Origin: Amanita rubescens
Lineage: Eukaryota > Basidiomycota > Agaricomycetes > Agaricales > Amanitaceae
Reading direction: 5' to 3'
Assembly (NCBI GenBank): GCA_015039365.1
Contig: WION01000119.1
Span: 62,001 to 126,000, forward strand
DNA length: 64,000 nucleotides
A model generated the notes under the pieces. That model saw only the letters and a list, made by a program, of their open reading frames with translations, did no database searches and was not told the DNA's origin. Position numbers and translations under genes: made by a program. Within the stretch, counting starts at the first letter, position 1, and each line of letters starts with the position of its first letter. Below, piece by piece: positions 4,711-48,010 of this stretch.

Positions 4711-5500
4711 ATGCGTTTCGCTCATCTTCTCGTCTGTCTCAGCGCTGCTATCGTTGCGTCGTCTTTGACGCTTAACACCAGGGGGCTTCCTTCGGGATTT
4801 AATGCTGCCGGCCATTATGGCTCCCCAATCCCCCCCTGGGAGGGAGGCTCATATCCTGGGTGGTACTTTGGTGAACATTGTCCCAGCGGTTATCACAACT
4901 TGCTCTGCCTCTCGGGTGTAAGCTTCAAATAATTTATTCCGTTTTCTTAAGTAAATATCGATTTGTATCTCAGCTCATCTGCGACCTGCTCCACCTCTTG
5001 GGCCTCGGTTTCTTATGCCCTTCCAATCGTAACCCGCCCCCCGACAGCGGCTACCATCAAACCTTCAACAACCTGACCGGCGCAACTGAAGCTTCCGATT
5101 ACCTGACCTATGGCCTGGTCGATACCGTTGCAGGTATAGTTAAGGTACCCCATTCCATTCAAGGCACATTATTGATGAAACTACTAGCTTGTGAAGCCAT
5201 GTGTAACTCTGTTACAGGCTGCGGTTTTGTTAACAGTTACGTTTTTTCACATAGTACCTGACGCTAGTGCTGATGATCTTCTAGCGTACTATGACGTGAA
5301 TGGCAAGGTGACGTTATTTTTACCTTTTGCGTCCAAGCGTGTTTTTGATCGGTTCTCTGCAGAATGGAAGCCCCTTGCTCACATGCGCGCTATTCAAAAT
5401 ATGCCATGGCGCGGCCGATGCTATTAACTATGGAGGCCAAACCCAGCCCGACGGGAGCGTCGACTACATCAAAGACAGCAATGGGTGGTGCAAAGCTTGA
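4711..5500 (+). CDS. fruit-body-specific secreted protein, long form (copy 1)
   Basis: Five exons fit canonical sites: 4711-4917, 4974-5133, 5188-5235, 5285-5307 and 5363-5500. The product starts with a signal peptide (MRFAHLLVCLSAAIVASS). Next is a Gly/Trp/Pro-rich section (YGSPIPPWEGG, GWYFGEHC), a Cys-containing segment, then the family core: TGATEASDYLTYGLVDTV, CEAMCNSVTGCGFVN, YDVNGK, LLTCALFKICH, GGQTQPDGSVDYI and a C-terminal GWCK. The core resembles mushroom proteins annotated as fruit-body specific protein a, whose paired cysteines suggest an Apple/PAN-like disulfide fold; that is recalled, not searched. It probably acts outside the cell, and its role is unknown. Two paralogues follow at 5992 and 55215 but lack the long middle section. 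Confidence 0.75.
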
Positions 5501-23556: not shown

Positions 23557-26500
23557 ATGTCGGCAGAGGATCCACCTCAGGTAGTGAATACTGGTATCTT
23601 TGCTGGATACCAGAATGTTGTTGTTATGGATAGTCAATATAAAGAGGTATTGCATTTCAGCATTTGGTGACGTGGATTTTGTCAATAATGATGACTCATA
23701 GATCAACTACTATCTTGCAGACTATTCCAATATTGATCTACCTCCTTTACCTCCTATCAAACATTCTAGTACTTTCTTTACAGGCCAAGATAAGTACTTG
23801 CAGAAGCTGAAGGATTACTTTGCCCCCAATATGGGAGGCCAAAGAAATTTTGTCCTTTTGCATGGTTTAGGTGGCATTGGAAAGACACAGATTTGCCTTA
23901 AATTCATTGAAGAAAACCCTGATTTGTGAGTAGTTTACACATTAGTATAGTAATTCAATATAACAGACCTATTCAAGGTTCTCTGACATATTCTGGATTG
24001 ATTCTTCTTCACAGAAAAGTATTGAATTTGCACTCACACAGATATCTTTAACCTACAGTACTTCACTAAATGGTAGACCCTCACCCAGATCTGCTCTTGA
24101 TTGGATCTCCCAAACACCCAACTTTTTGATGGTGTATGATGGAGCAGATGAACATTACTCAGTAGTTGAGAACTTCCTCCCACCAGGAAATGGAGGAAAT
24201 GTTCTGATAACAAGTAGGAATATTGGATTGAAGAGGTTGAGCAACAACTCAACAGAGATTCATGGCATGGAAGATAAAGATGCTATGTCCTTGCTTTTGA
24301 AGTCAGCCATGCTTGATGACACAGACAATGATATCTATAATCTGGCCCAGCAGCTTGTTTTGCAATTGGATGGAATCCCTCTTGCCATTGACCAAGCAGG
24401 AGCATACATGCATTTCTGTGAGTGCAGCATTGATAGCTATTTGGGGTTGTATGCAAGATACAAGAATGAGTTAATGAGGGATACACCAGGATTTAAGGGT
24501 GCTTCAGATTATGGGACATCTACATATGGGACATGGGACATTTCTATGAAAAACATGGAGATTATGACTGCAAGCAAAGTTGGGGGAGAAGCTGAGGCAG
24601 CACACAGTGCAATCAGGCTATTAAGGATTTTTGCCTTTTTGAATCATGAGAACATACCTGAAGAATTATTCAAGAATGCTGCAAAAAATTACATACAGAG
24701 AAATGTTGAAGTAAAAAAGTCTGATTTTTTGTTATCAATAAGCCAACTGAGCAATCAGACTTTATTCCTAAGTGAAGATGGGGAATGGGATAGAATGCAG
24801 TTTCTGAATGGAATAAAAGTTTTACACTCTTTTTCTTTGGTCAAAACTGTTAACCACTTGTATTCAATGCACATTCTGGTTAACACCTGGAGTAGGAGTT
24901 GTGTGCCAAAAACAGATGTTGAGAAATACTATTGCAGTGCAAGAGCACTGCTATCCTGTTCAATAGTCTTCAACTGGGAAATTGACAACTATGAATTCTG
25001 CAAATTACTTGCTCCACACATTAGGTCAAATTGCTTCCATGGATTGGAATTAAAATTGAACAGCAAGTACTATGATGATGAATATGAGCAATTTGCACTA
25101 GTATTCCATCACATTGGGAGCTGGGATGAGCAGGAAAAATTGTTACATGTTATAATTCATCAAAGAACAACAAAGCTTGGATCAGATGACCCATCCACTC
25201 TCACCAGCATGGACAATTTGGCATCAACATACAGGAATCAGGGAAGGTGGGATGAGGCAGGGAAGCTTCAAATGGATGTGATGAATTCAAGAAAAACAAA
25301 GCTTGGATCAGACCACCCAGACACTCTCACCAGCATGGCCAATTTGGCATCAACATACAGGAATCAGGGAAGGTGGGATGAAGCAGAGAAGCTTGAGATG
25401 GATGTGATGAATGCATTCAAAACAAAATTTGGATCAGACCACACATCCACTCTCACCAGCATGGCAAATTTGGCATCAACATACTGGAATCAGGGAAGGT
25501 GGGATGAAGCAGAGAAGCTTGACATGGATGTGATGAATGCAAGAAAAACAAAGCTTGGATCAGACCACCCAGACACTCTCACCAGCATGGCCAATTTGGC
25601 ATCAACATACTGTAATCAGGGAAGGTGGGATGAAGCAGAGAAGCTTCAGATGGGTGTGATGAATGCAAGAAAAACAAAGCTTGGATCAGACCACCCAGAC
25701 ACTCTCACCAGCATGGCAAATTTAGCATCAACATACAGGAATCAGGGAAGGTGGGATGAGGGAGAGGAGCTTGATATGGATGTGGTGGATGCATTCAAAA
25801 CAAAGCTTGGATCAGACCACCCAGACACTCTCACCAGCATGGCCAATTTGGCATCAACGTACTGGAGTCAGGGAAGGTGGGATGAGGCAGAGAAGCTTGA
25901 GATGGATGTGATGAATACAACAAAAACAAAGCTTGGATCAGACCACCCAGACACTCTCACCAGCATGGCCAATTTGGCATCAACATACTGGAATCAGGGA
26001 AGGTGGGATGAGGCAGAGAAGCTTGAGATGAATGTGATGAATGCAAGAAAAACAAAGCTTGGATCAGACCACCCAGACACTCTCACCAGCATGGCCAATT
26101 TGGCATCAACATACTGGAATCAGGGAAGGTGGGATGAAGCAGAAAAGCTTCAGATGGATGTGATGAATGCAAGAAAAACAAAATTTGGATCAGACCACCC
26201 AGACACTCTCACCAACATGGCCAATTTGGCATCAACATACTGGAGTCAGGGAAGGTGGGATGAAGCAGAGAAGCTTGAGATGAATGTGATGAATGCAAGA
26301 AAAACAAAGCTTGGATCAGACCACCCATCCACTCTCACCAACATGGCCAATTTGGCATCAAGATACAAGAATCAGGGAAGGTGGGATGAGGCAGAGAAGC
26401 TTGAGATGGATGTGATGAATGCAAGAAAAACAAGGCTTGGATCAGACCACCCAGACACTCTCACCAGCATGGCCAATTTGGCATCAACATATTGGAGTCA

Positions 26501-28081
26501 GGGAAGGTGGGATGAGGCAGAGAAGCTTGAGATGGATGTGATGAATGCAAGAAAAACAAAGCTTGGATCAGACCACCCAGACACTCTCATCAGCATGGCC
26601 AATTTGGCATCAACATACTGGAATCAGGGAAGGTGGGATGAAGCACAGAAGCTTCAGATGGATGTGATGAATGTAAGAAAAGCACAGCTTGGATCAGACC
26701 ACCCAGACACTCTCACCAGCATGGCCAATTTGGCATCAACATACTGGAGTCAGGGAAGGTGTGATGAGGCAGAGAAGCTTCAGATGGATGTGATGAATTC
26801 AAGAAAAACAAAGCTTGGATCAGACCACCCAGACACTCTCACCGGCATGGCCAATTTGGCATCAACATACTGGAATCAGGGAAGGTGGGATGAAGCAGAG
26901 AAGCTTCAGATGGATGTGATGAACACAAGAAAAACAAAGCTTGGATCAGACCACCCAGACACTCTCACCAGCATGGCCAATTTGGCATCAACATACTGGA
27001 ATCAGGGAAGGTGGGATGAGGCAGAGAAGCTTCAGATGGATGTGATGAATGCAAGAAAAACAAAGCTTGGATCAGACCACCCAGACACTCTCACCAGCAT
27101 GGCCAATTTGGCATCAATGTACTGGAGTCAGGGAAGGTGGGATGAGGCAGAGAAGCTTGAGATGGATGTGATGAATGCAACAAAAACAAAGCTTGGATCA
27201 GACCACCCAGACACTCTCACCAGCATGGCCAATTTGGCATCAACATACTGGAGTCAGGGAAGGTGGGATGAAGCAGAGAAGCTTCAGATGGATGTGATGA
27301 ATGTATTCAAAACAGAGCTTGGATCAGACCACCCAGACACTCTCACCAGCATGGCCAATTTGGCATCAACATACAGGAATCAGGAAAGGTGGGATGAGGC
27401 AGAGAAGCTTGAGATGGATGTGATGAATACATTCAAAACAAAGCTTGGATCAGACCACCCAGACACTCTCACCAGCATGGCCAATTTGGCAGTGACATAT
27501 ATGGATCAAGGAGGGCCAAATGAGGCAGAGACACTGGAGTTGGATATGATAAGTGCCCCAAAAGTGAAGTCTGAATCAGACCATCTGGAAGCAACTGTCA
27601 CTACTAATACATGTATCACTAACCAACCCTCTTCCAATAAGGATCTTCAGACAGTTCAGCAAGATGATAGCCAACCTGAAAATATGGTAAGTTAAGTAAG
27701 CTGACCTTGGCTTTTGTCTTATCACTTCTTTTGCTTAGCCAATCAAGCCCCTCAACCAGCTAGAGATCCAACAAGCTGAAGAGCAAGAGCCCATAGTAGG
27801 TGACATGGACATTTGCCTAACTTTTGCTAGATCTGGCTTTTGCATAGATCTCCAGTACCCATGACTATTTCAAGGAGGTTCCACATCAGGTGCAAGAGCA
27901 GAGTCAGGATGTGGTGCCCATGGTATTCTACCCTTGCACACCAATTCCCACTTTACATCTAATGTGTTCTTTGATGTAGCCTTCCAGTTCTGGTGAACAA
28001 CAACTTGAGCACATTGCAATGCAAACTAAGAATCAGTTTATTGAGGGACTCAAGGGCATATGGAGAAAACTGAAGTGTTGA
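23557..28081 (+). CDS. NB-ARC / TPR STAND receptor (fungal NLR-like)
   Basis: Six exons join in frame: 23557-23646, 23702-23925, 23978-27686, 27739-27795, 27848-27922 and 27980-28081. After a short N-terminus (VNTGIFAGYQNVVVMDSQY) come Walker A (HGLGGIGKTQ, about 23860-23887), Walker B (FLMVYDGAD), the ITSRN sensor motif and a GLPL-like motif (LDGIPLAIDQAGAY), i.e. an NB-ARC ATPase switch. The C-terminal half is a run of TPR units of 42 residues. A Gln-rich tail (EIQQAEEQEP, HQVQEQSQD) is encoded by three small exons. Such STAND proteins act in fungal non-self recognition and programmed cell death. There is no classical effector domain; the short N-terminal motif may stand in for one (inference). 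CpG is nearly absent throughout. A diverged copy starts at 62978. Confidence 0.85.
25209..27602 (+). repeat. 126-bp tandem repeats encoding about 19 near-identical TPR units
   Basis: From ATG 25209 the unit MxNLASTYxNQGRWDEAEKL recurs exactly every 126 bp, 18 times, to 27477. A degenerate unit precedes the run, and a final diverged one contains VTYMDQGGPNEAE. Units are almost identical in DNA. Differences concentrate at a few codons: W/R/C/K/M after STY, N or S next, E/Q/D before M, and the pair after VMN (AR, AF, TT, SR, VF). This is the kinesin-light-chain-like TPR type with high internal conservation seen in fungal STAND receptors. Confidence 0.9.
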
Positions 28082-33039: not shown

Positions 33040-34359
33040 CTCGTCGCGCAGAACGATAATTTCAGAGATCTAGAAAGTTTGCCGGAAAGAGAGTTTGAGC
33101 AATGCGAGGAGGATACGGAAAGGTAATTGATTGGGAGTCCCTCTCGGATAGGGCGTCTAGAGTCGAATCAGCCTGCGACTTCAAACCTAGTAACGCTGTT
33201 TTTAGTCAAATCCGTGTTAGAGACAAGAAAGCATTTAGTACCATATCAGCGATGGAGAGCAAGCCCTGGCGTGACAGGAATGTCACAGTCTCGCGCGACG
33301 TCATCTCTGTAGAAGGCCGCTCTAGCTCAGAGCCGCATCACTCAATCCCGGTGAGCATGTCCTCCCACCTCGACCATTCCACCACAACATCGCTCTCTAT
33401 GTGACTTGTGTGGCCCAACTGACTGCCCGCCCACGTCAAAAAATTTACCACTCAGCGCTTTGTTCATACCACGCATCGGCGATGTCATTTTTGGCAACTT
33501 GCTCTCTGGCGGTTCCCCCTCTGGCAAGGAACACTCACAAGACTGAATTGCCTATAGTAATGAGTATGTTCTTGCACCACTTTCAAAGTCTCACTGCTCA
33601 TGCCATTCACCATCCAGCCAACACGATAATTTTGCACTCCACCGCTCACCGATTCCCGGCGCTGCGCCGCTCGCCACCCCCTTGCCCAGCACCATCGCTA
33701 TGTCATCAACAACCGGCGCATTCCTCCACTACATGGTAGTACCCGCCGTTCATGCCAATTGCTCTTCTGTCTGCTCGGATCGTACTCGCTAGGGTGCCCT
33801 TTTATTTCCCAGGGTCTTATATGCACATCCCTGTCCTTGGTCCTTTTGAAATGCCTGCATCTCGGGACAGGGAGTTTGGATGGGAGTAGATTATATTCGT
33901 TTTAGTGAGCCGGATATTCTGTGGTCTTGTTCACGTATAACAATTTTGAAAGCATACAGAATCATGAAACGAGGCCCATATCATTTCAGTGCATAGCCTG
34001 TATCGCCATTCGCTGCAAGAAACCTGAATCGTCGCGTCTTGGTGCGTATACAACTCGTAACTGTGACATCCTCATTTACGGATGTCTATAACATCACCCT
34101 ATCCTGCTGATCAATTCCTCGTTTGAAAGCGACGCTTACTTTGGACAGTGAAGCAAACGGCATTCGATGAGCTTCAACTATCAGTACACTGAGGCCAGAT
34201 GGATGACGAACGTCTCGTTTCCTTGCGTGGTTCGGTTCGCGTGACGCATATGCCTACTCCACGCCACTTAGTAAGAACATTTTGTTTCGGCAAAGGTCAA
34301 TACGCAGGCTGCGATAATTGGGTGATGATTAACAAATACAACAGTAGCCATCGAATAGA

Positions 34360-34920
34360 TCACTGACATAAAATTAAATCATCTTCTTGATGGCGCTCGT
34401 ACGTTTCGTTTGATGTTTCAGACATGCGGGATAGTACTACGCTGGCGACCCACAAGCTTTCCCGCCGCCTAGCCTGCTCCCTTCCTTCTCGCTCGAAGCT
34501 CAGGTAACGGTATCTGCAATGATCGTCCAGCATTCCCCGCATGATCTTGAGCTACGTGGATGGAGAATGGGTCCTTAGTTAGCTGCGAATACGCAATGAT
34601 CGCCATCGGAGACGGTAAGCGTTGGGCGCCGGCTGGATAAGTAAAACTTTTCTCGACTATTTTGCCTAACGTTTCGGTTCTAGCCAAGCGTACACTTGCA
34701 TAAATCATAGAACACCTTCATTAACAGGCTCAGAACGGGCCCAGAACGGCGCGAGAGAATATGCCACCAGAGGATAGTACCAAGCTGGGTATTATAGTCT
34801 GGGTCCCGGCATGGCCCATAGTGGGATCAGGGGAAAGTGGGGTATGACGAATGCGCAATACTGGGGGGGGGGTCGACATTGCTACCAAATCAGGGCGGTC
34901 AGACTCGACAGAGGGCAAAG
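34360..34920 (-). pseudogene. unidentified coding vestige in outer left arm
   Basis: Pieces such as MGHAGTQTIIPSL (about 34830-34800), HVAQDHAGNAGRSLQIP and ELRARRKGAG followed by ARRRESLWVASVVLS have counterparts in the right arm at 47495-48005 on the opposite strand. The shared protein-like pattern suggests a second ancestral gene, transcribed outward from the GTPase. No intact frame or known domain is visible. Confidence 0.3.
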
Positions 34921-35884
34921 AGGATAGATGCGTACCGCCAACCTCCGAGCGTTGGCACTGTGCAGGACATTTTCCAACTCATATATTGGCCAAAGGACAG
35001 ATCACCAATGTTGATCGCGATCACGACTGTGTCGGACAACCACCATTAGCAAAATCCCATCCGAGTGGGTAGAATAGGCCCGCGTTTCTCATACGACCGG
35101 CGCTGCAAAGCAGGTTAGTAGGGACGCTGAATTGAAGATGGCGATCCAGACTGTACGTCATATGTCAGCTTTGGCACAAAGTATTTTTTTCCGTTTAGTC
35201 TTGGACACAACTTCCTTGATGCTGCCTGATTGAGAGACAGACGACGGGGATGAAAGCAATGGAGGCGATGAAACACGTGGCCTGAGGAAGTCACTCCGAA
35301 GGCATACCCCCCTCGTTTTCCAATCCACTGGCACGCTCGGAATCAGCCTGCCACGTATTGCTTGGAATACGCTTTGCAGCGAAGAATGGTGGCATGGTTT
35401 GCAGCAAGTCAGAGGTTTCGGACGAAACCTTCGACATTGCTAAATGAAGTAATTGACCAAATACGTACAACTTGGCTTAGGTTCCAGGGGTCCCTGCCTC
35501 GTGCTTGTTCTTCCGCCAAACGCACCAGCCATTCCCATCGCAGTGCTCTCAACTGAACACGTCAGTGTTTCATTTTCATGCCGTTGTCCGGGCTGACCAC
35601 CCTCATTTCAGAGCCTGACACGCCATCTCAGCGCTGCCCAGTGCCGAATTACCTAGACTGCACGTACCACTGGTGAGCTGCAGAAACTGCTGTTACTTCA
35701 CGACTCATGGCAGTGCCACCGTTCCCTAGTAGTACCAGCTGGTTCCTCAATCAAGTTGAACTCGGAGTCTCGGACCCGCTTTCTAGATTCACATCACTTT
35801 CCCCTGTCTTGTCTACTTCTCTCCTGAGCTTGTTATTACTTCTGCACCATACTACAATAAACATTCCACCACAAAGCACTGGTG

Positions 35885-38800
35885 ATGGAAGATACTCATA
35901 CAACTAGCATGCTTCTATCAAGTAGGCAAATATATGCATTTCTATCTCATCCCAAAATTTGACTAGTGTATTTGGATATAGATGACTCAGAGAAACATGT
36001 CAAAATGCTCAAAGATCAATACCTATGTCCCCATTTTCGTATCCTTATCATAGGAAGGGCCAATGCTGGCAAAACAACTGTCCTTGAGAAGATTTGTGGT
36101 GTAGCAAGGGGAGCAAAGCCTATCATATATGACAAGGATGGTAAGCCTGCCTCAAATTTCTGCATTTAAATTCTTAGTTCTTTGTAGGTAAAGAGCTTTT
36201 ACCCACTGGGTCTCATTTGATTTCATCAGTTGAGGTAAGTTGACTTGTGACATCTCAACATACTTTATTCATATCCAGTTACATATCACCAGAGAGGCCT
36301 TCATGATATTGAGCATCAAATTACATTTGATGGAAGTAATTTTATCTTCCATGACTCTCAAGGTTTTGAATCTGGTGCAACTGAGGAATTGGAGATTGTT
36401 TGGGATTTCATTGAAAAGAGGTCTGGAGAAACTGAGATAAAGAATCAGTTGCATGCAATTTGGTATATGTATTCCTTGTGCTTTTAACATCACATGCCTG
36501 ATCTAGCTTATTGTACATGTAGGTACTGCATCCCCATGGATGGCCCTCGTCCCATTCTACCTGCAGAGCTTGCATTTTTTACAAAAGGGACTGGCAAAGG
36601 TAAATATTTATTGCTCAAATTGGCTTCTACCTGCCCCAAAATCTATGATGCCTGTGTTAACAAATTCATATAACCTTGCAGTTCCTTTGGTGGTTGTGTT
36701 TACCAAATTTGATGGTCAAATCATTAATGAATATGTTACCTTAATGAATCCATACATTGAAGATAAGTGGGAAATGGCTAGGAACAATGCTGAACATACT
36801 TTTCAAGAGGTTTACCTTCCCAAAGTCTTAGATGCCAAATATCCTCCTAAGGCATATGTGCGATTGGAAGGTGAGAAGGCAAACATTCCATCTCTCTAGT
36901 AACATAAATAATATTGCTTGAAAAATAGACATGGATTTACCAGAGAAGCACTGTCCTGAATTAGCTCAACAGACTGCTGATGCAATTGATGATGAAAGCT
37001 TACATCATTTGTTTGTCTCAACACAGAAGAATAACCTTGATCTCTGTGTTAAGGCTGCATTTCAGTGAGGTTCATATTAAAGCATTTCTTTTCATGCACT
37101 GACCATTCTCAGAGCCATCATCAATAAGAGTAATTTCACATGGGAAGACACTGCTATTGTTGTTCTTAGCAAATTTCCACATTACTGGGTATGCATAGTT
37201 TGTTAAATATCTGCACAGCAATGTAGAAAGAATTGAATTGGGAACAGTTCCGCAGGCAGGCAGGTGTCCAATTTTATATGACATGCTAAACATTCACAAA
37301 ATATGCAACAGCATGCAAGTAACACTGTGATTTATTTGCATGTGCCCTAATTAGCCTTGTGCTAGATGTCTGCTACAGAAATGAAAGAAATTCAGGTGTA
37401 TTCTATCACATACCATTTGTACAAAGTTTAATGATTGGATGGCAGTGGGTGAGCAAAATTCAACCACTCATGTAGATACATATGGTGCCTTGTCTCATGA
37501 CCATCAGTTTGTGAGTGATGCTTCACTTGGTTATGTAAATGTCTTGTCCCATCATCAACAGGAAGTGAGTGTACCACTTAATTCCTGACAGGGAGTCCCA
37601 TGGCTCATGATGTGACCAACAGACAGTGAGTAAATCTACCCATTTAAACAATGTTGTCCTGCTACATTCTATAATTAAAAGGCAGTCAGTGTCACAATAT
37701 TTTCCTGACCTTGGGACTCACACTGCATCACATTCTATCACATCAAGAAAGTGAGTGACATTAACATTTTTTTAATGTCTACCCTGATCCAATAAGCAAC
37801 AGAATGTTTGTGACATTATACTTACATATATTTGAACAAATCTTGTTTAATTACATCTTAACAATAGCGAGTAAGTGACAGTGTCCATCCAACTACTGAT
37901 ATTCATTCTAAGTCACTCAATACAGGTAGTGAGTGAAGACCTACATTGTCTTCTGGGCAGTCTCTTCACACTGAGTACATGAACAATAGAAAGTGAGTGG
38001 TGCACTGTTCACTCCTATGCTAGGATCATTAATTATGTCCTTATGTCACAGTCAGTAAGTAATCCCATCATGCACTTTGGCAGGCATCTTATAACAGCTT
38101 GTGGTAATATGAACAACAGTATGTGAGTGAACTTGCACCTTTGTCTAAAACAAACTCTCAGGAAATATTAATTATGCAATCAGTCTGTGGGTAACATTGG
38201 GCATTTGTCTGAAAGAAAGCTTCATCACCCCTTCTTCCTACAATGGACAGAATGCAAGTGACATTTATTTCTCTAGAAGGCAACCTCAACACATGATAAT
38301 TAATAGCGTGTGATTAACATTGCACTATTTTCTGAAAGCAATCTTATGACATTTGTTCCTATGTCTACAGAGTGTGGGTGATATAAACAGCAATCATCAC
38401 AGCTCATTTCTTATGGTCAACAGCATGTCAGTGGCATTACATGTTTTTCTGATACTTAACCTCCTTCCTATGGTTAACAGGCAGTGAGTGACATTTAACA
38501 GTTGTCTGGAACAAATATTCATTGTATTTCTTTATGACCAACAGTTTGTCAGTTATGTTACACAATTTTCTGCAATCCAGTCTCATCACTGGTTTTCTAT
38601 CACCAACAGGCAGTGAGTGAATATTTTGAAATTTTGATGGCAGTCTCATCACACAATTTCACATCCCCGATAGTTTGTGAGTGATATTTCATATTTTCTG
38701 AAAGGTGATGACATATTACAACTGTTATCTCCAACAGGGAGTTCAGTCTGCACAGTTTTTTGGATGGTTGTCACACTTATCACATTGTTTTCTATTGCCT

Positions 38801-40275
38801 TCAGTATGTAAGTGAACATATTGCTAGTAAGAGGTGATTTCACCACATCCTTTACCACCACCAGTTTGTCAGTGATGCTATACATTTTTCTGGAAAATTG
38901 TTTCATCACCTTGTCCTACAATCAACAGAGTGTGAGTGACAATGAGCATCTTCCAGAAAAGTAGTCTCAGAATGCAACAAACAGGGAGTGAGTATCATCA
39001 TGTGAAATTCTCAAGGGAGTCTTATCACCTAGCAATCACATGATCACTTCTTCTATGATCAACAGGCTGTAAGGGAATTACACATTTCTAAAAAGCAATT
39101 TTATTACATATTTTTCTTTGACAAATAGCATCATGTCAGTGCACTTGCATGATTTTCCTCAACTTAGGAAGCCTCATCATGTGTTTTTTCTTGGCCAACA
39201 GGAAGTGGGTTCAGTGTATTGGCTGCTGCATTTCTCTGAAATATGGCATATTCTCCTATTTCCAACAGGTGATTCTGCACTTTGAATGGCAGACTGGTTT
39301 ATCACATCTTCTTCTAGCATGACATACTGCAAGTGTGTGACATTACACTTCTCATAAATTCAATTTCATAGCACATTCTCATCCCCAACAGCATGTATGC
39401 AATATTTTACCTTTGTTCTACAGTTGATTACATTTTGTCCATCTCCAACAGCAAGTAAGTGATGTTTAAAGGGAAGGAAGTCACATCACATCTTGTACAA
39501 TTCACAGTTTGTGAGTGATATTGTGCAATTTTCAGTGTGGAGATTCCCATGATCAATAGGGAGTGAGTGGGACCAAACATCTTAAGCTATGGAAACCCAT
39601 GGCATTTCTAATGACAACAGAAAGTGATAAGCCTCATTACATTCCAATCCATCAATGCTTGATGTATGTATCATTTGAATGTAACAGGAAGTGAGCAGCA
39701 TGATACAATTGTCTTTCTGTGCTTTCCCCCCTTTTTACTGCTGCCCATAGATTGTGAGATTGCATTTTAGTTTGTCTAATTCCTAAACTTTTGTGTCTTC
39801 CCAGGTGAGTGATATCAACATAGGATTTATTAATACTGTGACATATATGCTAGTTTGTAAGTCCACTTCTGCATTTGAAACCTGATTCTTTCTTATAATA
39901 TCAAAGGGACCACTTTTATCTTTGTTTGGAGATGTTTCAAACAATTTTTCAATAACTGTATGCATTACTCTTGCCCATGTGATAAATAACTGATATCAGC
40001 CAATTTGAAGCCCACAGCCTGCCAAGTTTTAATTTGTAAAAGTTGCTTCTCTTCACTAACTCTCTTCATGCTAATGCATTCAAGCAATGAATATTATTGC
40101 TAAGCTATCATTTTGGATTGGCAAACCATTCCGGGAATCAATCATGGAGGCTTTCAACAAATTTAAGAGAGAGGACTATGTGCAGAAACTGAAAATGGCC
40201 ATTACTTTGCAGGCCATAAATTTGAGCAAGGAAGACCTAGTTGTATTTATGTGCCAGTATGTGGCCCACATTTGA
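35885..40275 (+). pseudogene. P-loop GTPase gene with micro-exon array, left-arm copy, disrupted
   Basis: The motifs and exon order are those of the right-arm copy: G1 GRANAGKTTVLEK (about 36055-36093), G3 FHDSQGFES, G4 VFTKFDGQ, then EDKWEMARNNAEHTFQEVYL, DDESLHHLFVSTQ, SNFTWEDTAIVVLSKFPHYW, the array 37446-39856, GPLLSLFGDVSNNFSIT (39907-39957) and MNIIAKLSFWIGKPFRES. Two faults separate it from the right copy. Compensating indels at about 35947-35965 put a TGA in the N-terminal frame, unless a local GTAGGC...CTAG intron is used. One base is missing at about 40000 in the exon before the last. Six micro-exons are also lost. I call it a likely pseudogene, though the array itself stays stop-free. 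Confidence 0.6.
37446..39856 (+). repeat. array of about 40 intron-plus-codon units (left arm)
   Basis: Each unit ends in a 3'-splice-like AACAG (or AATAG), carries exactly 3 nt, then starts GTGAGTGACATT or a close variant. Three-nt segments sit at 37446, 37508, 37562, 37623, 37682, 37748, 37803, 37868, 37926, 37990, 38052, 38120, 38184, 38251, 38307, 38371, 38424, 38481, 38545, 38610, 38674, 38738, 38805, 38865, 38929, 38985 and 39066, a 6-nt one at 39129, and more at 39202, 39334, 39392, 39452, 39508, 39560, 39621, 39688, 39751 and 39854. Two sites (39268, 39804) have AG directly abutting GT. Spacing is mostly 53-81 nt. Introns share an internal TTTTCTGAAA-like block, so they are paralogous. 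None of the 39 codons is a stop. Confidence 0.8.
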
Positions 40276-40612
40276 TGGTAAGTCCTTCAGTTTCAATTCA
40301 TAAAACACCCATGCACATTTGAGGCAGGATGTCATTCCACACTCCAAGTTGGCAGTGCTTCCACATGAAACTTATTTTGATTTACCTGGATATACATAGT
40401 TCATCTTTTGTCACTACTGTTTTCCTCCAGTGTACTTATAATGCCCCCAGTTTCTTACTTCTGCTGTCCAAATTTCTTCCATAGAAGTATCTTTAGTATG
40501 CAGAATCTGATCATATCATGATGGAATGTTTCTGTAGTAGTGTAGCCAAGTCATGGGCTGCATGACACAGTTTCAACAAGAGGTTTTAAAAAATTGTTCC
40601 CTTGGGAACATG

Positions 40613-41080
40613 TGTTACAAACTCATTAATCTCAACCTAAGTTGCAATGGCAACTCTAGTCACAATTTACAAGTCTAAGTCAAACAGCAGTTGAGACTAC
40701 AAGTTGAATACTAAGTTAAGTGTTAACTTAGTATCAGTGAGGACAATTGTGGTTGAGTGAGTAGAACAAGTGAGATTGGCAATGTAGAACAGCTAAGCCA
40801 AACTCAAGGTTTGGCTCTAGTAATACATGCCTTTATATACATGTTAAAACAAAGGTGTACTGTAAGAAGCAATAAGGGAAGTACATATTGTAATTAGAAC
40901 AAGGAAATACTTGTAAGTAGAACAACACATATTGGACAAAGGGATGGTATTGATAAAGAAATGGACTTGTCCATATGAATCAAGCATAAGGGACACAATG
41001 AGTAAGGTAGACATAAAGAAAATTAACATGTCTGACTAATCATGTATGCATAATGCAGGAGTCTGTACTGTGTTGCAACA
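40613..41080. mobile_element. solo LTR in the spacer of the inverted repeat
   Basis: The 468-bp sequence starts TGTTACAA and ends TTGCAACA, and is flanked by a direct 5-bp target duplication ACATG (40608-40612 and 41081-41085). It contains a TATA-like TTTATATACATG (about 40831) and a perfect 12-bp-stem palindrome (40708-40734). No internal retroelement genes are present, so it is a solo LTR of a Copia- or Gypsy-type element. Confidence 0.75.
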
Positions 41081-41085
41081 ACATG

Positions 41086-41546
41086 TGCAACACAGCCTAT
41101 GGCAAAAGCCTAGAATTAGAAATTGTACTGTGATGAGTGGAAATGCAGGAGTCATGAGGGCCACATCTCATGTTGGTTGCACTGGGAAGACCCACAAACT
41201 CAACAAAAGACATGCACATACCCAAACTTGGCAAATCTGGGCCGCGACTTTGTGCAGCAGGTCCGAGGCAATTTTAGTACAACCATCAACAACTTGCCTG
41301 TTTACATTGCATTGGCATATGGGATAGGTGCAGTACACACCTAGGTGGGCATCTTATATAGCAATTGCAGACTGGAATTCATTGATCAAATCCTACAATA
41401 ATGATTGGTAGTGTATCACTGTGTGATCCTTTGTTACAACTCTTTAAATGGTAGATAAGTCCTGATAATGTTTTATATAGTAATTGCAGAGTGGGATTTG
41501 TTGATCAGAACTATCTAGTTATACCAAACCCCAGCTGAAATCCTGA
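41086..41546. other. rest of the inverted-repeat spacer
   Basis: Unique sequence between the LTR and the right arm. It holds two similar blocks (TTATATAGCAATTGCAGA at about 41353 and TTATATAGTAATTGCAGA at about 41471). A 73-codon plus frame (41123-41344) shows no known domain. Confidence 0.45.
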
Positions 41547-41812
41547 TGCATGCCTTGGCTACAATACTACATAAAGAGTCCATGATCATGGTATAATCTG
41601 AGTCTGCATACTTTGATGGAAGAAGTTTTGACAGCAAAAGTAAGAAACTTAAGTACAATGGATGAAAACAGTAGTGGAAAAAGATGGAGCATATCCAGGT
41701 AAATTAAAATGAGTTTCATGTACTGTGGAAGCACTGCCAACTTGGAGTGTGGAATGACATCCTGCCTCAAATGTGCATGGGTGTTTTATGAATTGAAACT
41801 GAGGACTTACCA

Positions 41813-44800
41813 TCAAATGTGGGTCACATGCTGGCACATAAATACAACTAAGTCTTCTTTGCTCAAATCTATGGCCTGCAAAGTAATGGCCATTTTCAGT
41901 TTCTGCACATAGCCCTCTCTCTTAAATTTGTCAAAAGCCTCCATGACTGATTCCCGGAATGGTTTGCCAATCCAAAATGATAGCTTAGCAATAATATTCA
42001 TTGCTTGAATGCATTAGCATGAAGAGAGTTAGTGAAGAGAAGCAACTTTTACAAATTAAAACTTGGCAGGCTGTGGGCTTCAAATTGTGCTGATATCAGT
42101 TATTTATCAGATGGGAAAGAGTAATGCATACAGTTATTGAAAATTTGTGTGGAACATCTCCAAACAAAGATAAAAGTGGACCCTTTTATTTTATAAAAAT
42201 CAGATTTCAAATGCAGAAGTGGACTTCTGACTTACAAACTAGCATATATATGTCACAGTATTAATAAATCTCATGCTGATATCACTCACCTGGGAAGACA
42301 CAAAAGCTCAGGAATTAGACAAACTGAAAAGCAATCTTACAATCTATGGGTAGCAGTAAAAATGGGGAAAGCACAGAAAGACACTTGTATGCTGCTCACT
42401 TCCTGTTACATTCAAATAATACATCAAGCATTGATGGATTGGAATATAATGAGGCTCATGCTCAAAAGTTTTAGTGCCACTCACTTTCTGTTGTCATTAG
42501 AAGTATCATGAATTTTGGTAGCATAAAGATGTTCAGTCTCACTCACTCCCTGTTGGTCATGGGAATCCCCATACATAAAATTGCACAATATCACTCACAA
42601 ACTTTCAATTGTATAAGATGTGACTCAGATGTGACTTCCTTCCCTTAAATATCACTTACTTCCTGTTGGAGATGGACAGAATGTAATTAACTTTACAACA
42701 AAGGTAAAATATCACACACATGCTGTTGATGATGAGAATGTGCCATAAAATTGAATTTTATGAGATGTGCAATGCCACGCACTCGCTGTTGGGCATGCTA
42801 GGAGAAGATGTGATGAACAAGTCTGCCATTCAAAGTGCAGGATGACACTCACTCCCTATTGATTATGAAACAGATATAATGTGACTCCTGTTCACAAATG
42901 TGTTACAATATAACCCACTACCTTTTGAAGACCGGAAATGATGTGATAAGACTGCCTTTTAATAATAAGGCTACTCACTGGCTGTTGTGCATTGCAGAAT
43001 ATACCATGAGGTTGCTTTTCAGAATGATGTGCATTGCCACCCACAAACTGTTGGTGAAGGAAAAGAAATATATTAGGGTTTGAAGAAATTGTGTCACATG
43101 TATACAATGTGACTCACATTTCCATTCTGTTGGTTAGGAAAAATGTCAAAAGACTACACCTCAGGGGATTGTAATCTTATTCCACTCACTGCTGGCTGTT
43201 GGTCATAGGAAAATATGCCATAAGACTGTATTTCAGAGAAATGCACAATACACAGAACTCACTTCCTGTTGGCCAAGAAAATAACACATGGTGAGGCTTC
43301 CTTGAAGAAAATCATGCAAGTACACTAACTCCATGCTATTTGTCAAAGAAAGATTGTATGTAATAAATTTGGTTTTTAGAAAATGTATTGAATTCCCTTA
43401 CTGCCTGTTGGTCATAGAAGAAGTTATCACATGATTGCTAGGTGATAAGACACCCTTGAGAATTTTGCATGATGATACTCACTCCCTGTTTATTACATTC
43501 TGAGATTGCTTTTCTGGAAGATGCTCGTTGCCACCCACACGCTGTTGATTGTAGGGCAAGGTGATGAAACAGTTTTCCAGAAAAATGTATAGCATCACTA
43601 ACAAACTGGTAGCAGCAAAGGATGTGGTAAAGTCACCTCTTACTAGCAATATGTTCACTTACATACTGTAGGCAGTAGAAAACAATGTGATAAGTGTGAA
43701 GACCAGAAAACTGTGCAGACTCACTCCCTATTGATGATAACAGAGTAATATGTGATCAGGCTACCTTTCAGAAAATATGAAATGTCACTCACAAACTATT
43801 GGGGATGTGAAATTGTGTGATGAGACTGTGATTAAAAACTTCAAAACTGTTCACTCACTGCCTGTTGGTGATAGAAAAACCAGTGATGAAACTGAATTGC
43901 AGAAAATTGTAACTGACAAACTGTTGGCCACAGAGAAATACAATGAATATTTGTTCCAGACAACTGTTAAATGTCACTCACATACTGTTAACCAAAGGAA
44001 GAATATAAGTATCAGAAAAATCTGTAGTAATGTCACTGACATGCTGTTGACCATATAAATTGAGCTGTGATGATAGCAATCAGAGAAATGTCTATATCAC
44101 TCACATCCTGTTAGATGCAGAAACAAATGTCATAAGATTGCTTTCAGAAAATAGTGCAATGTCAATCACTTCCTATTTGTCATGGAAAATTGTCATGATG
44201 TGATGAGGTTGCCTTCTAGAGAGATAAATGTCACTTGCATGCTATCCATTGTGAGGAGAAGGGGTGATGAAGCTTTCTTTCAGACAAATGTCTAATGTTA
44301 CCCACAGACTGATTATGTGATAGATATTTCCTTGGAGTTTGTTTCAGAAAAAGGTGCAAGTTCACTCACATACTGTTGTTCATATGACCACAAGCTGTTA
44401 TAAGATACCTGCCAAAGTGGATTACTTACTGACTGTGTGACATAAGGACATGATAAATCCTAGCATAGGAGTGGACAGTACTGTCACTCCACTCACTTTC
44501 TTTTGTTCATGTAGTCAGTGTGAAGAGACTACCAAGACAATGTAGGTCTTCACTCACCGCCTGTTTTATTGAGTGCTTAGAATGAATATCAGTAGTTGGA
44601 TGGACACTGTCACTTACTCGCTATTGTTAAGATGTAATTAAACAAGATTTGTTCAAATATAAGTATAATGTCACAAACATTCTGTTGCTTATTGGATCAG
44701 GGTAGACATTAAAAAAATGTTAATGTCACTCACTTTCTTGATGTGATAGAATGTGATGCAGTGTGAGTCCCAAGGTCAGGAAAATATTGTGACACTGACT

Positions 44801-46601
44801 GCCTTTTAATTATAGAATGTAGCAGGACAACATTGTTTAAATGGGTAGATTTACTCACTGTCTGTTGGTCACATCATGAGCCATGGGACTCCCTGTCAGG
44901 AATTAAGTGGTACACTCACTTCCTGTTGATGATGGGACAAGACATTTACATAACCAAGTGAAGCATCACTCACAAACTGATGGTCATGAGACAAGGCACC
45001 ATATGTATGTATCTACATGAGTGGTTGAATTTTGCTCACCCACTGCCATCCAATCATTAAACTTTGTACAAATGGTATGTGATAGAATACACCTGAATTT
45101 CTTTCATTTCTGTAGCAGACATCTAGCACAAGGCTAATTAGGGCACATGCAAATAAATCACAGTGTTACTTGCATGCTGTTGCATATTTTGTGAATATTT
45201 AGCATGTCATATAAAATTGGACACCTGCCTGCCTGCGGAACTGTTCCCAGTTCAATTCCTTCCACATTGCTGTGCAGATATTTAACAAACTATGCATACC
45301 CAGTAATGTGGAAATTTGCTAAGAACAACAATAGCAGTGTCTTCCCATGTGAAATTACTCTTATTGATGACTGCTCTGAGAATGGTCAGTGCATGAAAAG
45401 AAATGCTTTAATATGAACCTTACTGAAATGCAGCTTTAACACAGAGATCAAGGTTATTCTTCTGTGTTGAGACAAACAAATGATGTAAGCTTTCATCATC
45501 AATTGCATCAGCAGTCTGTTGAGCTAATTCAGGACAGTGCTTCTCTGGTAAATCCATGTCTATTTTTCAAGCAATATTATTGATGTTACTAGAGAGATGG
45601 AATGCTTGCCTTCTCACCTTCCAATCGCACATATGCCTTAGGAGGATATTTGGCATCTAAGACTTTGGGAAGGTAAACCTCTTGAAAAGTGTGTTCAGCA
45701 TTGTTCCTAGCCATTTCCCACTTATCTTCAATGTATGGATCCATTAAGGTAACATATTCATTAATGATTTGACCATCAAATTTGGTAAACACAACCACCA
45801 AAGGAACTGCAAGGTTATATGAATTTGTTAACACACTGGCATCATAGATTTTGGGGCAGGTAGAAGCCAATTTGAGCAATAAATATTTACCTTTGCCAGT
45901 CCCTTTTGTAAAAAATGCAAGCTCTGCAGGTAGAATGGGACGAGGGCCATCCATGGGGATGCAGTACCTACATGTACAATAAGCCAGATCAGGAATGTGA
46001 TGTTAAAAGCACAAGGAATATACCAAATTGCATGCAACTGATTCTTTATCTCAGTTTCTCCAGACCTCTTTTCAATGAAGTCCCAAACAATCTCCAATTC
46101 CTCAGTTGAACCGGATTCAAAACCTTGAGAGTCATGGAAGATAAAATTACTTCCATCAAATGTGATTTGATGCTCAATATCATGAAGGCCTCTCTGGTGA
46201 TATGTAACCGGATATGAATAAAGTATGTTGAGATGTTACAAGTCAACTTACCTCAATTGATGAAATCAAATGAGACCCAGTGGGTAAAAGCTCTTTACCT
46301 ACAAAGAACTAAGAATTTAAAAGCAGAAATTTGAGGCAGGCCCACCATCCTTGTCATATATGATAGGCTTTGTTCCCCTTGCTACACCACAAATCTTCTC
46401 AAGGATGGTTGTTTTGCCAGCATTGGCCCTTCCTATGACAAGGATACGAAAATGGGGACATAAGTATTGATCTTTGAGCATTCTGACATGTTTCTCTGAG
46501 TCATCTATATCCAAATACACAGTCAAATTTTGGGGAGGGAGTAGAAATGCATATATTTGCCTACTTGATAGAAGCATGCTAGTTGTATGAGTATCTTCCA
46601 T
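41813..46601 (-). CDS. P-loop GTPase with single-codon micro-exon array, intact copy
   Basis: ATG is at 46601. The G domain reads: HFRILVIGRANAGKTTILEK (G1), a short exon with LLPTGSHLISSVE, RGLHDIEHQITFDGSNF, FHDSQGFESG (G3), VWDFIEKRSG, YCIPMDGPRPILPAELAFF, LVVVFTKFDGQ (G4), EMARNNAEHTFQEVYL. Then come DDESLHHLFVSTQ, FTWEDTAIVVLSKFPHYW, and TTC-CGC-AGG and AAATGAAAG exons that reach phase 0. The micro-exon array 45042-42236 is entered and left in phase 0. The end is GPLLSLFGDVPHKFSIT, a 37-nt exon (HNLKPTACQVLI) spliced from GTAAAAG to the last exon (MNIIAKLSFWIGKPFRES to the stop at 41813). The G domain resembles AIG1/dynamin-like fungal GTPases expanded in Agaricomycetes; function unknown. 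If spliced as read, the gene would hold over 50 introns. Confidence 0.7.
42236..45042 (-). repeat. array of about 45 intron-plus-codon units (right arm)
   Basis: On the minus strand the same pattern recurs as in the left arm: AACAG, 3 nt, GTGAGTGACATT-like. On the plus strand it appears as ACTCAC, 3 nt, CTGTT. The first codon TGG is at 45042-45040 and the last TTT at 42238-42236. Forty-one units carry 3 nt, two carry 6 nt and one carries 9 nt (about 43117-43125); one has none. All 48 codons are sense codons. The third base of nearly every 3-nt segment is A or T, followed directly by the GT donor. Introns share internal sequence, showing that intron plus codon was amplified as a block. Confidence 0.8.
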
Positions 46602-47494
46602 CACAAGTGCTTTGTGGTAGAATGTTTATTGTTGTCCGAGACTCCGAGTTCAACTTGATCGAGGAACCAGCTGGTGCTAGGGAACAGTGAATGGTGGCCA
46701 CTGGCACTGCCACCATCAGTCGTGAAGTAACAGCAGCTTCTGGAGCTCACCAGTAGTACGTGCAGTCTCTGTAATTTGATACTGGGCAGTGCTGAGATGG
46801 CGTGTCGGGCTCTGAAATGAGGGTGGGAGTCAGCCCAGACAGCGGCATGCAAATGAAACACTGACGTGTTCAGTTGAGAGCACTGCGATAGGAATGATGG
46901 CTGGTGCGTTTGGCGGAAGAACAAGCACGACGCAGGGACCCCTGGAACCTAAGCCAAGTTGTACGTATTTGGTCTATTACTTCATTTAGCAATGTCGAAG
47001 GTTTCGTCCGAACCTCTGACTTGCTGCAAACTATGCCACCATTCTTCGCTGCAAAGGCAATACGCAGGCTGATTCCGAGCGTGGATTGGAAAACGAGGGG
47101 GTATGCCTTCGGAGTGACTTCCTCAGGCCGTGTTTCATGATTCGTCTTCGCTGCTTTCATCCTATTCGTCGTCTGTGGACATATGACGTACAGTATGGAT
47201 GCCCATCTTCAATGTTCTTTGAATCAGCATCCCTAGTACTAACCTGCTTTGCAGCGGCGCCGGTCGTACGAGAAACGACATGTAAAACTTCATACTTACG
47301 ATCCCGGGCCTATTCTACCCGCTCAGTTAAGATTTTGTTATTGGTAGCTCTCCGACACAGTCGCGATCGCTGGTGATCCAGCTAATATTAATGTACGAGT
47401 TGGAAAACGTCCTGCATCGTACCAATGCTCAGAGGTTTGCGGTACGCATATATCTTCGCCCCCTGTCCAATCTGACCACCCCGATGCAGTAGCA

Positions 47495-48010
47495 ATGTCG
47501 ACTCGTCATGTCCCACTTTCCCCCAATTCCACAATGAGCCAAGCCGGGACTCAGACTATAATACCCAGTTTGATATCCTCCAGTGGCAGATTCTCTCGCG
47601 CCATTCTGAGCTTATCCCACGTGTATCGATCAGGGCATTCTATGACTTATGCAAACGTACGCTTGGCTAGAACCGAAACGTAGGCAAAATAGTCGAGAAC
47701 AATCAGCGCCCAACGCTTATCATCTCCGACGGTGCGATGGTGACATTGCATATTCGCATTCGCAGCTGACTGAGGGCCCTTCACATAGCTCAAGATCATG
47801 CGGGGAATACTGCGCGATCATTGGAGATATCGTCACTTGAGCTTCGAGCGAGAAGGAAGGCAGCAGAGCAGGCTAGGCGGCGGGAAAGCTTGTGGGTCGC
47901 CAGCGTAGTACTATCCCACATGTCTCAAACATCTAACGAAACGTACGAGCGCCATCAAGAAATGATTTATGTCAGTGATCTACTCGATGGCTACTGTTGT
48001 ATTTATTAAT
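47495..48010 (+). pseudogene. unidentified coding vestige in outer right arm
   Basis: Counterpart of 34360-34920. It contains MSQAGTQTIIPSL, a shifted frame with HAGNTARSLEISSLELRARR, and then ARRRESLWVASVVLSHMSQT and ETYERHQEMIY, ending at about 48007. It is better preserved than the left copy, yet still broken. It is divergently oriented to the GTPase in the same arm. Confidence 0.3.

Follow-up and report, generated by a model that had tools for sequence, protein, structure and literature searches.

Can a protein be assembled codon by codon from exons of three nucleotides (nt)? The question is raised by a gene on the minus strand of an Amanita rubescens contig, which lies in a window of 64,000 nt whose numbering is used for all coordinates below. 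Between the ordinary exons of a GTPase domain and those encoding the C-terminus of this gene there is an array of repeated units, in each of which three bases stand between a splice acceptor (usually AACAG) and a donor (usually GTGAGT), and a preliminary description of the DNA had proposed that every three-base segment is a genuine exon and contributes one residue. From the DNA and from protein records we find that the single-codon exons are in frame, that their introns are of ordinary length and their splice sites strong, that the codons stand in order in intron-free reading frames and that the same architecture exists at many loci. We are highly confident that the single-codon exons form a genuine chain, in a fungal GTPase family that has expanded; the chain is probably spliced stepwise by intron definition, and its product would be a variable linker.

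The array opens with TGG (45,042-45,040) and closes with TTT (42,238-42,236), so that the ends of the chain coincide exactly with the limits first given for it (42,236..45,042). When the DNA was threaded along P0010, an intron-free protein frame described below, the array resolved into 40 exons of 3 nt, together with two of 6 nt, single exons of 9 and 15 nt and one point of zero length, with introns of 49-82 nt. The preliminary description was right in counting two exons of 6 nt and one of 9 nt; its single-codon units hold for the 40 exons of 3 nt and fail for CGA (42,785-42,783), seemingly a unit of its own, which in the reading that fits P0010 is the end of the 15-nt exon. A one-codon reading of the exon at 42,797, made blind, proved wrong, P0010 having HAQQR at that place. 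The introns have the GT or GC and AG ends and the consensus donors and acceptors of U2-type introns; GC replaces GT in three donors (GCAAGT after CAT twice, GCAGGT after CAG once), which fit the forms GCAAGT/GCAGGT. Sites resembling AACAGNNNGTGAGTG (AACAG-NNN-GTGAGTG) with at most two mismatches number 62 in the window, including a second array described below and stray sites, compared with 5.8 expected and at most 15 in 100 shuffles, and exact sites number 3,005 in the whole assembly (75.7 Mb, 786 contigs), compared with 10 for the reversed pattern used as control. A chance origin of the unit pattern is excluded by the window shuffles and the genome-wide count.

The decisive evidence comes from proteins. 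P0010 is an uninterrupted frame of 285 amino acids (aa) on a JGI contig of 1,099 nt, too short for the about 3 kb of genomic array, and P0014 has 478 aa on 1,486 nt; both frames most likely come from spliced RNA. The query of the protein search contained an array peptide that had been read by eye from the DNA units before P0010 was seen, and it agrees with that record at 44 of 44 residues over the 15 before the array (FRRQHMSATEMKEIQ) and the first 29 of the array (WFETAKNRAKSYSHEDHYFAFGYFRGAHG); beyond these the eye reading and P0010 diverge for a stretch, to agree again at RHEFGKEIFGPLLSLFGD. A model based on splice sites only reproduced 43 of the 53 array residues of P0010. Threading matched 74 of 81 residues, 48 of 53 in the array, compared with at most 42 of 81 and 16 of 53 in 15 control threadings for which the array residues of P0010 had been shuffled. 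P0010 contains every one of the 28 window-array exons between W and HG, these two included, which means that inclusion can be complete. At another locus, L031, the array agrees with P0014 at 38 of 48 residues without gaps, and threading matched 58 of 75 residues (at most 35 in 12 shuffles). The proposal that each three-base segment adds one residue is thus borne out by residues standing in order in P0010 for the window gene and in P0014 for L031. More broadly, 12 of 18 array peptides matched intron-free frames better than all 50 of their own shuffles.

The reading frame is preserved in the spacing of the splice sites. Over 21 sequences (the window and 20 fetched loci) the gap between AACAG and GTGAGT measured 3 nt in 340 cases, 6 nt in eight, 9 nt in two and 12 nt in one, with one gap of 1 nt and two of 2 nt, and gaps of 0, 4, 5, 7, 8, 10 or 11 nt did not occur. 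A frame-blind splice model yielded 514 exons of 3 nt and, among the other exons of up to 24 nt, 20 with a length divisible by three and 3 without (p 2e-7); this model missed weak units, which left many segments of 37-145 nt (tally modulo three over all segments: 570, 40 and 19), and built no array at two of the 18 starts (L037 and L046). A frame-constrained model admits only multiples of three and no stops, and was hence not used as evidence of frame. Among the 3,005 exact sites, TAA and TGA together account for two codons, both TGA (two among the control hits), and the 30 NAG codons are divided into 8 AAG, 10 CAG, 12 GAG and no TAG.

Several points weigh against a coding array. The scarcity of stops is no proof by itself, because with TAA or TGA a GTRAGT donor would arise that overlaps the acceptor, and with any NAG a second acceptor, effects which the scarcity of TAA/TGA and of TAG may reflect. 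The records are proteins, and their origin from spliced RNA rests on an unbroken frame and on contigs far shorter than the genomic array. Six of the 18 peptides (L038, L040, L041, L042, L046 and L047) did not exceed their own shuffles, arrays of about 100 units lacked an intron-free counterpart (a search with the L050 array matched P0010 only), and when P0014 was searched for by its array and C-terminus, it matched only itself. Nor is any fetched genomic copy identical to P0010. In favour of coding, on the other hand, the variant exons CCTGAA, CCAACA, AAAGGAATT and AAG of C689 correspond to PE, PT, KGI and K in P0010, and the KGI unit is also present in C328; C689 is ruled out as the exact source, having MSV for MSA and Q for R.

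A further adverse point is P0089, an annotated gene model at another locus, which reads FPHYW...LFALFTLFGG with no array residues. Together with the sequence family shared by the units, it would suit a decayed minisatellite lying in one long intron, in which AG-NNN-GT would be a mere remnant of the repeat and splicing would remove the array whole. This is very improbable: the codons stand in order in P0010 and P0014, the frame is kept in exons of 6, 9 and 12 nt, and Tandem Repeats Finder did not list the window array. If the JGI frames are RNA-derived, removal of the array as a single intron is refuted for two loci, and a product that skips it, the contrary outcome raised in the preliminary description, appears only as P0089, a gene model and not a transcript. 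Among the 120 proteins listed, 13 have at least 35 aa beyond FPHxW and the others are uninformative on the array; the seven annotated proteins whose ends were inspected all stop before or shortly after FPHxW.

Recursive (ratchet) splicing, in which the units would be stepping stones through a long intron and leave no codons, could account for the AG/GT point of zero length at 42,289/42,290 and for a similar TTTTCAG/GTGAGT near the end of the L049 array. However, a 3-nt unit leaves a codon at each step, such codons are found in P0010 and P0014, and no AACAG directly abuts GTGAGT in the 21 sequences; we give this explanation of the array almost no credence. The zero-length point of the window may itself be a recursive splice site. 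In L049 the corresponding point lies at about 5,224-5,236, near the end of the array as in the window, and the two are possibly one conserved recursive splice site.

The layout of the gene, in which the array is preceded by three small exons and followed by C-terminal exons, is given in Table 1. Pfam recognised MMR_HSR1 alone in the GTPase domain (E 4.5e-4; 20.8 bits, slightly under the cut-off of 21.9), and an Rfam search of 34,000-48,000 gave no match.

Table 1 Features of the two GTPase-family genes in the window.
Feature	Position	Strand	Basis or remark
Whole gene (GTPase domain, micro-exon array, C-terminal exons)	41,813-46,601	-	Start codon placed by eye
GTPase domain in ordinary exons; last residues ...SKFPHYW, phase 0 at 45,300	45,300-46,502	-	tblastn and Pfam
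Three small exons upstream of array	45,093-45,240	-	Identical residues in P0010
Small exon 1, TTCCGCAGGCAG, FRRQ (12 nt)	45,240-45,229	-	
Small exon 2, CAT, H (3 nt)	45,176-45,174	-	
Small exon 3, MSATEMKEIQ (30 nt)	45,122-45,093	-	
Array, product WFETAKNRAKSYSHEDHYFAFGYFRGAHGEPANGNFPVGHAQQRHEFGKEIF	42,236-45,042	-	Exon table, recount and P0010
Zero-length point TTCCCAG/GTGAGTG	42,289-42,290	-	The 102-nt stretch between ATT and TTT might instead be one intron
C-terminal exon GPLLSLFGDVPHKFSIT	42,182 to about 42,132	-	Order as in P0010; boundaries by eye
C-terminal exon PTACQVLI-S	42,077-42,053	-	Order as in P0010; boundaries by eye
Last exon MNIIAKLSFW...CQHVTHI and stop	42,003-41,813	-	Order as in P0010; boundaries by eye
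Second gene of the GTPase family, convergent	35,885-40,275	+	Start and stop by eye
Array of the second gene, similar but partly damaged	about 37,442-39,900	+	Several units lost or damaged

Arrays of this kind extend well beyond the window. Of the first 100 exact sites listed in the assembly, 97 have another listed site within 2 kb. We fetched 20 stretches around exact sites, some of them overlapping or duplicate, and tblastn found the same GTPase family in 17, the exceptions being L039, L040 and L043; an array scan saw none in L043 and only doubtful units in L036. The long array of L040 (G000:C26:113500-123400, minus strand) begins differently, with the head MMH..., and this locus showed no GTPase match within the 9.9 kb fetched. 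Seventeen arrays were counted from 18 models, L044 being omitted as a near copy of L050, and they contain 705 single-codon units, 167 of them with an exact site. Extrapolation gives about 12,700 units; if an array has some ten exact sites, there would be about 300 arrays. These figures indicate an order of magnitude only, as the sample was picked by array hits and the models were frame-constrained. L039 and L050 have arrays of about 100 single-codon units, and the same stretches include additional units in which Gln and Pro codons are frequent (CCA, CAA, CTT). The third base of the codon is A in 335 of the 705 modelled units, T in 303, G in 66 and C in one, so that 638 end in A or T. This limit probably stems from splicing, and the usable amino-acid alphabet would be limited because the splice context restricts the last base of the codon.

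How such arrays arose can be approached through their introns. The 299 introns between strict units have a median length of 61 nt and most commonly measure 62 nt; outside the bases used for selection, GTGAGTGACATT is common to their starts and TATGACCAACAG to their ends, and their median identity to the 62-nt consensus is 66%, compared with 48% for shuffled introns. In L033, L035, L049 and L050 divergence from the consensus is large towards both ends of the array (identity about 50-70% in the first dozen introns and in the last few), and most introns in the middle are close to it (75-97%), so that arrays seem to have grown in their middle. The preliminary description envisaged amplification of a block consisting of an intron and a codon, an idea borne out only in part. 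The introns do form one repeat family, but the codons barely track intron similarity: introns 88-91% identical adjoin the same codon in 8-13% of cases, compared with 6% for random pairs, and those 91-94% identical in 11-37%, a figure from 28 pairs that include true counterparts from the two window genes. Codon and intron thus did not simply travel together, or else the codons changed very fast later. Copying of the neighbouring codon by each new intron was not supported, with 57 adjacent identical codons found and 44.7 expected (standard deviation 6.3); nor were such codons in excess next to young introns. Two histories would fit: homogenisation or insertion of introns without regard to the codons, or duplication of units after which the codons evolved much faster than the introns.

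One form of the former would be introner-like elements, a mobile intron family inserted repeatedly between pre-existing codons. It would explain why unrelated codons stand beside similar introns, the codons being nearly independent of intron similarity, and it agrees with our finding no codon strings repeated beyond shuffles, either within arrays or between the middles of different arrays. However, insertion would be needed at every codon boundary and always in phase 0, and arrays differ in length, which means that residues were gained and not introns alone. Moreover, fungal introner-like elements (PMC4457414) are many similar spliceosomal introns in one genome, as here, but lie in unrelated genes, whereas the Amanita introns are one codon apart and, at the loci surveyed, concentrated in one gene family (17 of 20 loci) and closely clustered (97 of those first 100 sites). 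We regard this origin as unlikely.

The latter alternative, in which units were duplicated and their codons then came under strong diversifying selection or targeted change, as in a recognition segment, finds support in the second, convergent GTPase gene of the window. Between the two window genes 18 of 111 codon positions differ, compared with 146 of 1,798 intron positions (Fisher p 0.008), including whole-codon changes such as TAT/GCA and GAA/CGT. The splice sites of the two genes are better kept than the introns (donors differ by 4.6%, acceptors by 5.9% and introns by 8.1%), a point in favour of a real array of single-codon exons. As to diversification of the linker, P0021 and P0026 are alike at 274 of 288 positions before FPHYW and at 85 of 90 after the linker, yet their linkers, of 68 and 51 aa, share only 26 matching positions. 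The closest copies tell otherwise. Four full-length copies of the minus-strand array exist elsewhere, 94-96% identical, and in six pairwise comparisons of the window array and the three copies fetched, which are the closest, codons differ by 0.7-4.3% and introns by 2.7-4.8%, the codons differing less in five of the six, which argues for constraint. Gene conversion homogenising the introns could also give the same picture, and we consider diversifying selection possible but rather doubtful. As codon change is not in excess among the closest copies, we lean slightly towards introns having been homogenised or inserted independently of the codons.

The array of the second gene may be decaying or read differently. 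One donor has an extra base (GGA/GTTCAGT), splice sites are lost (CATACTG before CAA; AAA/GTGATA) and several units are gapped relative to the minus-strand gene. The two genes occur as a pair on four contigs (C23, C289, C67 and C328), either because they were copied as a unit or because these are different haplotypes. Elsewhere in the window, an open frame of 1,189 aa (24,126-27,695, plus strand) contains about 18 near-perfect repeats of 42 residues, encoded by a tandem array with a 126-bp period at 25,163-27,491; we take these repeats to resemble TPR, behind a part that looks NB-ARC/NACHT-like.

Known systems resemble the Amanita arrays in part. A working definition of micro-exon genes (MEGs; PMC7653826) asks for at least seven exons, at least half of them under 70 nt and divisible by three, with a run of at least four consecutive ones, and 42,236-45,042 falls under it with 44 consecutive coding micro-exons of 3-15 nt. 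The flatworm MEGs of Schistosoma, Echinococcus and Hymenolepis (PMC7653826, PMC10526429) likewise have consecutive small exons divisible by three that can be gained, lost or skipped in frame, and form expanded, poorly annotated families. In contrast to these, the Amanita exons are nearly all of one codon, with more than 40 in a row, the introns (49-82 nt) belong to one repeat family whereas MEG introns reach 5 kbp, and the host is a mushroom GTPase unrelated to the secreted MEG proteins; that family is marked by an N-terminal signal peptide and long introns, the Amanita gene by an N-terminal GTPase domain and short introns. Isolated ultra-small exons show that the spliceosome can join exons of 1-3 nt. 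Examples are the 1-nt exon of Arabidopsis APC11 (PMC4674806), the 1-nt exon of Fusarium CYP621A, presented in 2026 as the first for a fungal gene (PMC12940212), the 3-bp exon of Drosophila hth (PMC7392893) and plant micro-exons, including a neighbouring pair of 5 and 12 nt in rice (PMC8831610). These are single or paired, whereas in Amanita there are dozens in series and thousands per genome. Within the literature searched (open-licence PMC papers) we found no description of serial single-codon exons, and the Amanita array is far more extreme than anything found there.

For APC11 the authors propose intron definition, with two introns removed one after another (PMC4674806). In the Amanita arrays the short introns with strong ends also suggest intron definition, and we infer that splicing is sequential. 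The nuclear spliceosome would remove the introns one after another from the 5' side, each ligation adding one codon to the growing upstream exon, which would then abut the following GTGAGT donor. In this way no 3-nt exon would ever need to be recognised as an exon on its own; a donor 3 nt behind an acceptor could hardly be bound simultaneously with that acceptor. The product would be a linker that joins the G domain to a C-terminal helical part and varies in both length and sequence. The middle of this linker may have grown by gaining units of one intron family, and its head (WFE...) and tail appear conserved between many paralogs. In an AlphaFold model of P0014 (mean predicted local distance difference test, pLDDT, 82) the G domain and the C-terminal helices are confident, and residues 322-359, which include 33 of the 48 array-coded residues (327-374), fall below a pLDDT of 50; a variable linker is presumably the role of this segment. 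The top Foldseek matches of the model are IRG and dynamin-like GTPases (IIGP1/Irga6, BDLP, IniA; E 2e-5 to 1e-3), a predicted likeness that is loose, with TM of about 0.23-0.35 and 10-14% identity in the top 29 rows.

One genome thus appears to splice thousands of single-codon exons in frame, dozens per transcript, in arrays that annotation overlooks. Exons of 1-3 nt have so far been published singly, as curiosities, and the steric limits of tiny exons are a standing question; the arrays make testable the geometric limits of the spliceosome, the accuracy with which donors and acceptors are paired when the sites are nearly identical, and sequential splicing in the 5'-to-3' direction. It is conceivable, and we put it forward tentatively, that they constitute a codon-cassette system, a genome-wide stock of some ten thousand one-codon exons. 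Since every residue would be flanked by introns of its own, single residues could be inserted, deleted or exchanged with the frame intact, and the GTPase family may use the system for evolving recognition segments and perhaps for varying them within a cell by codon skipping. The arrays would offer a route to new protein sequence, one residue at a time.

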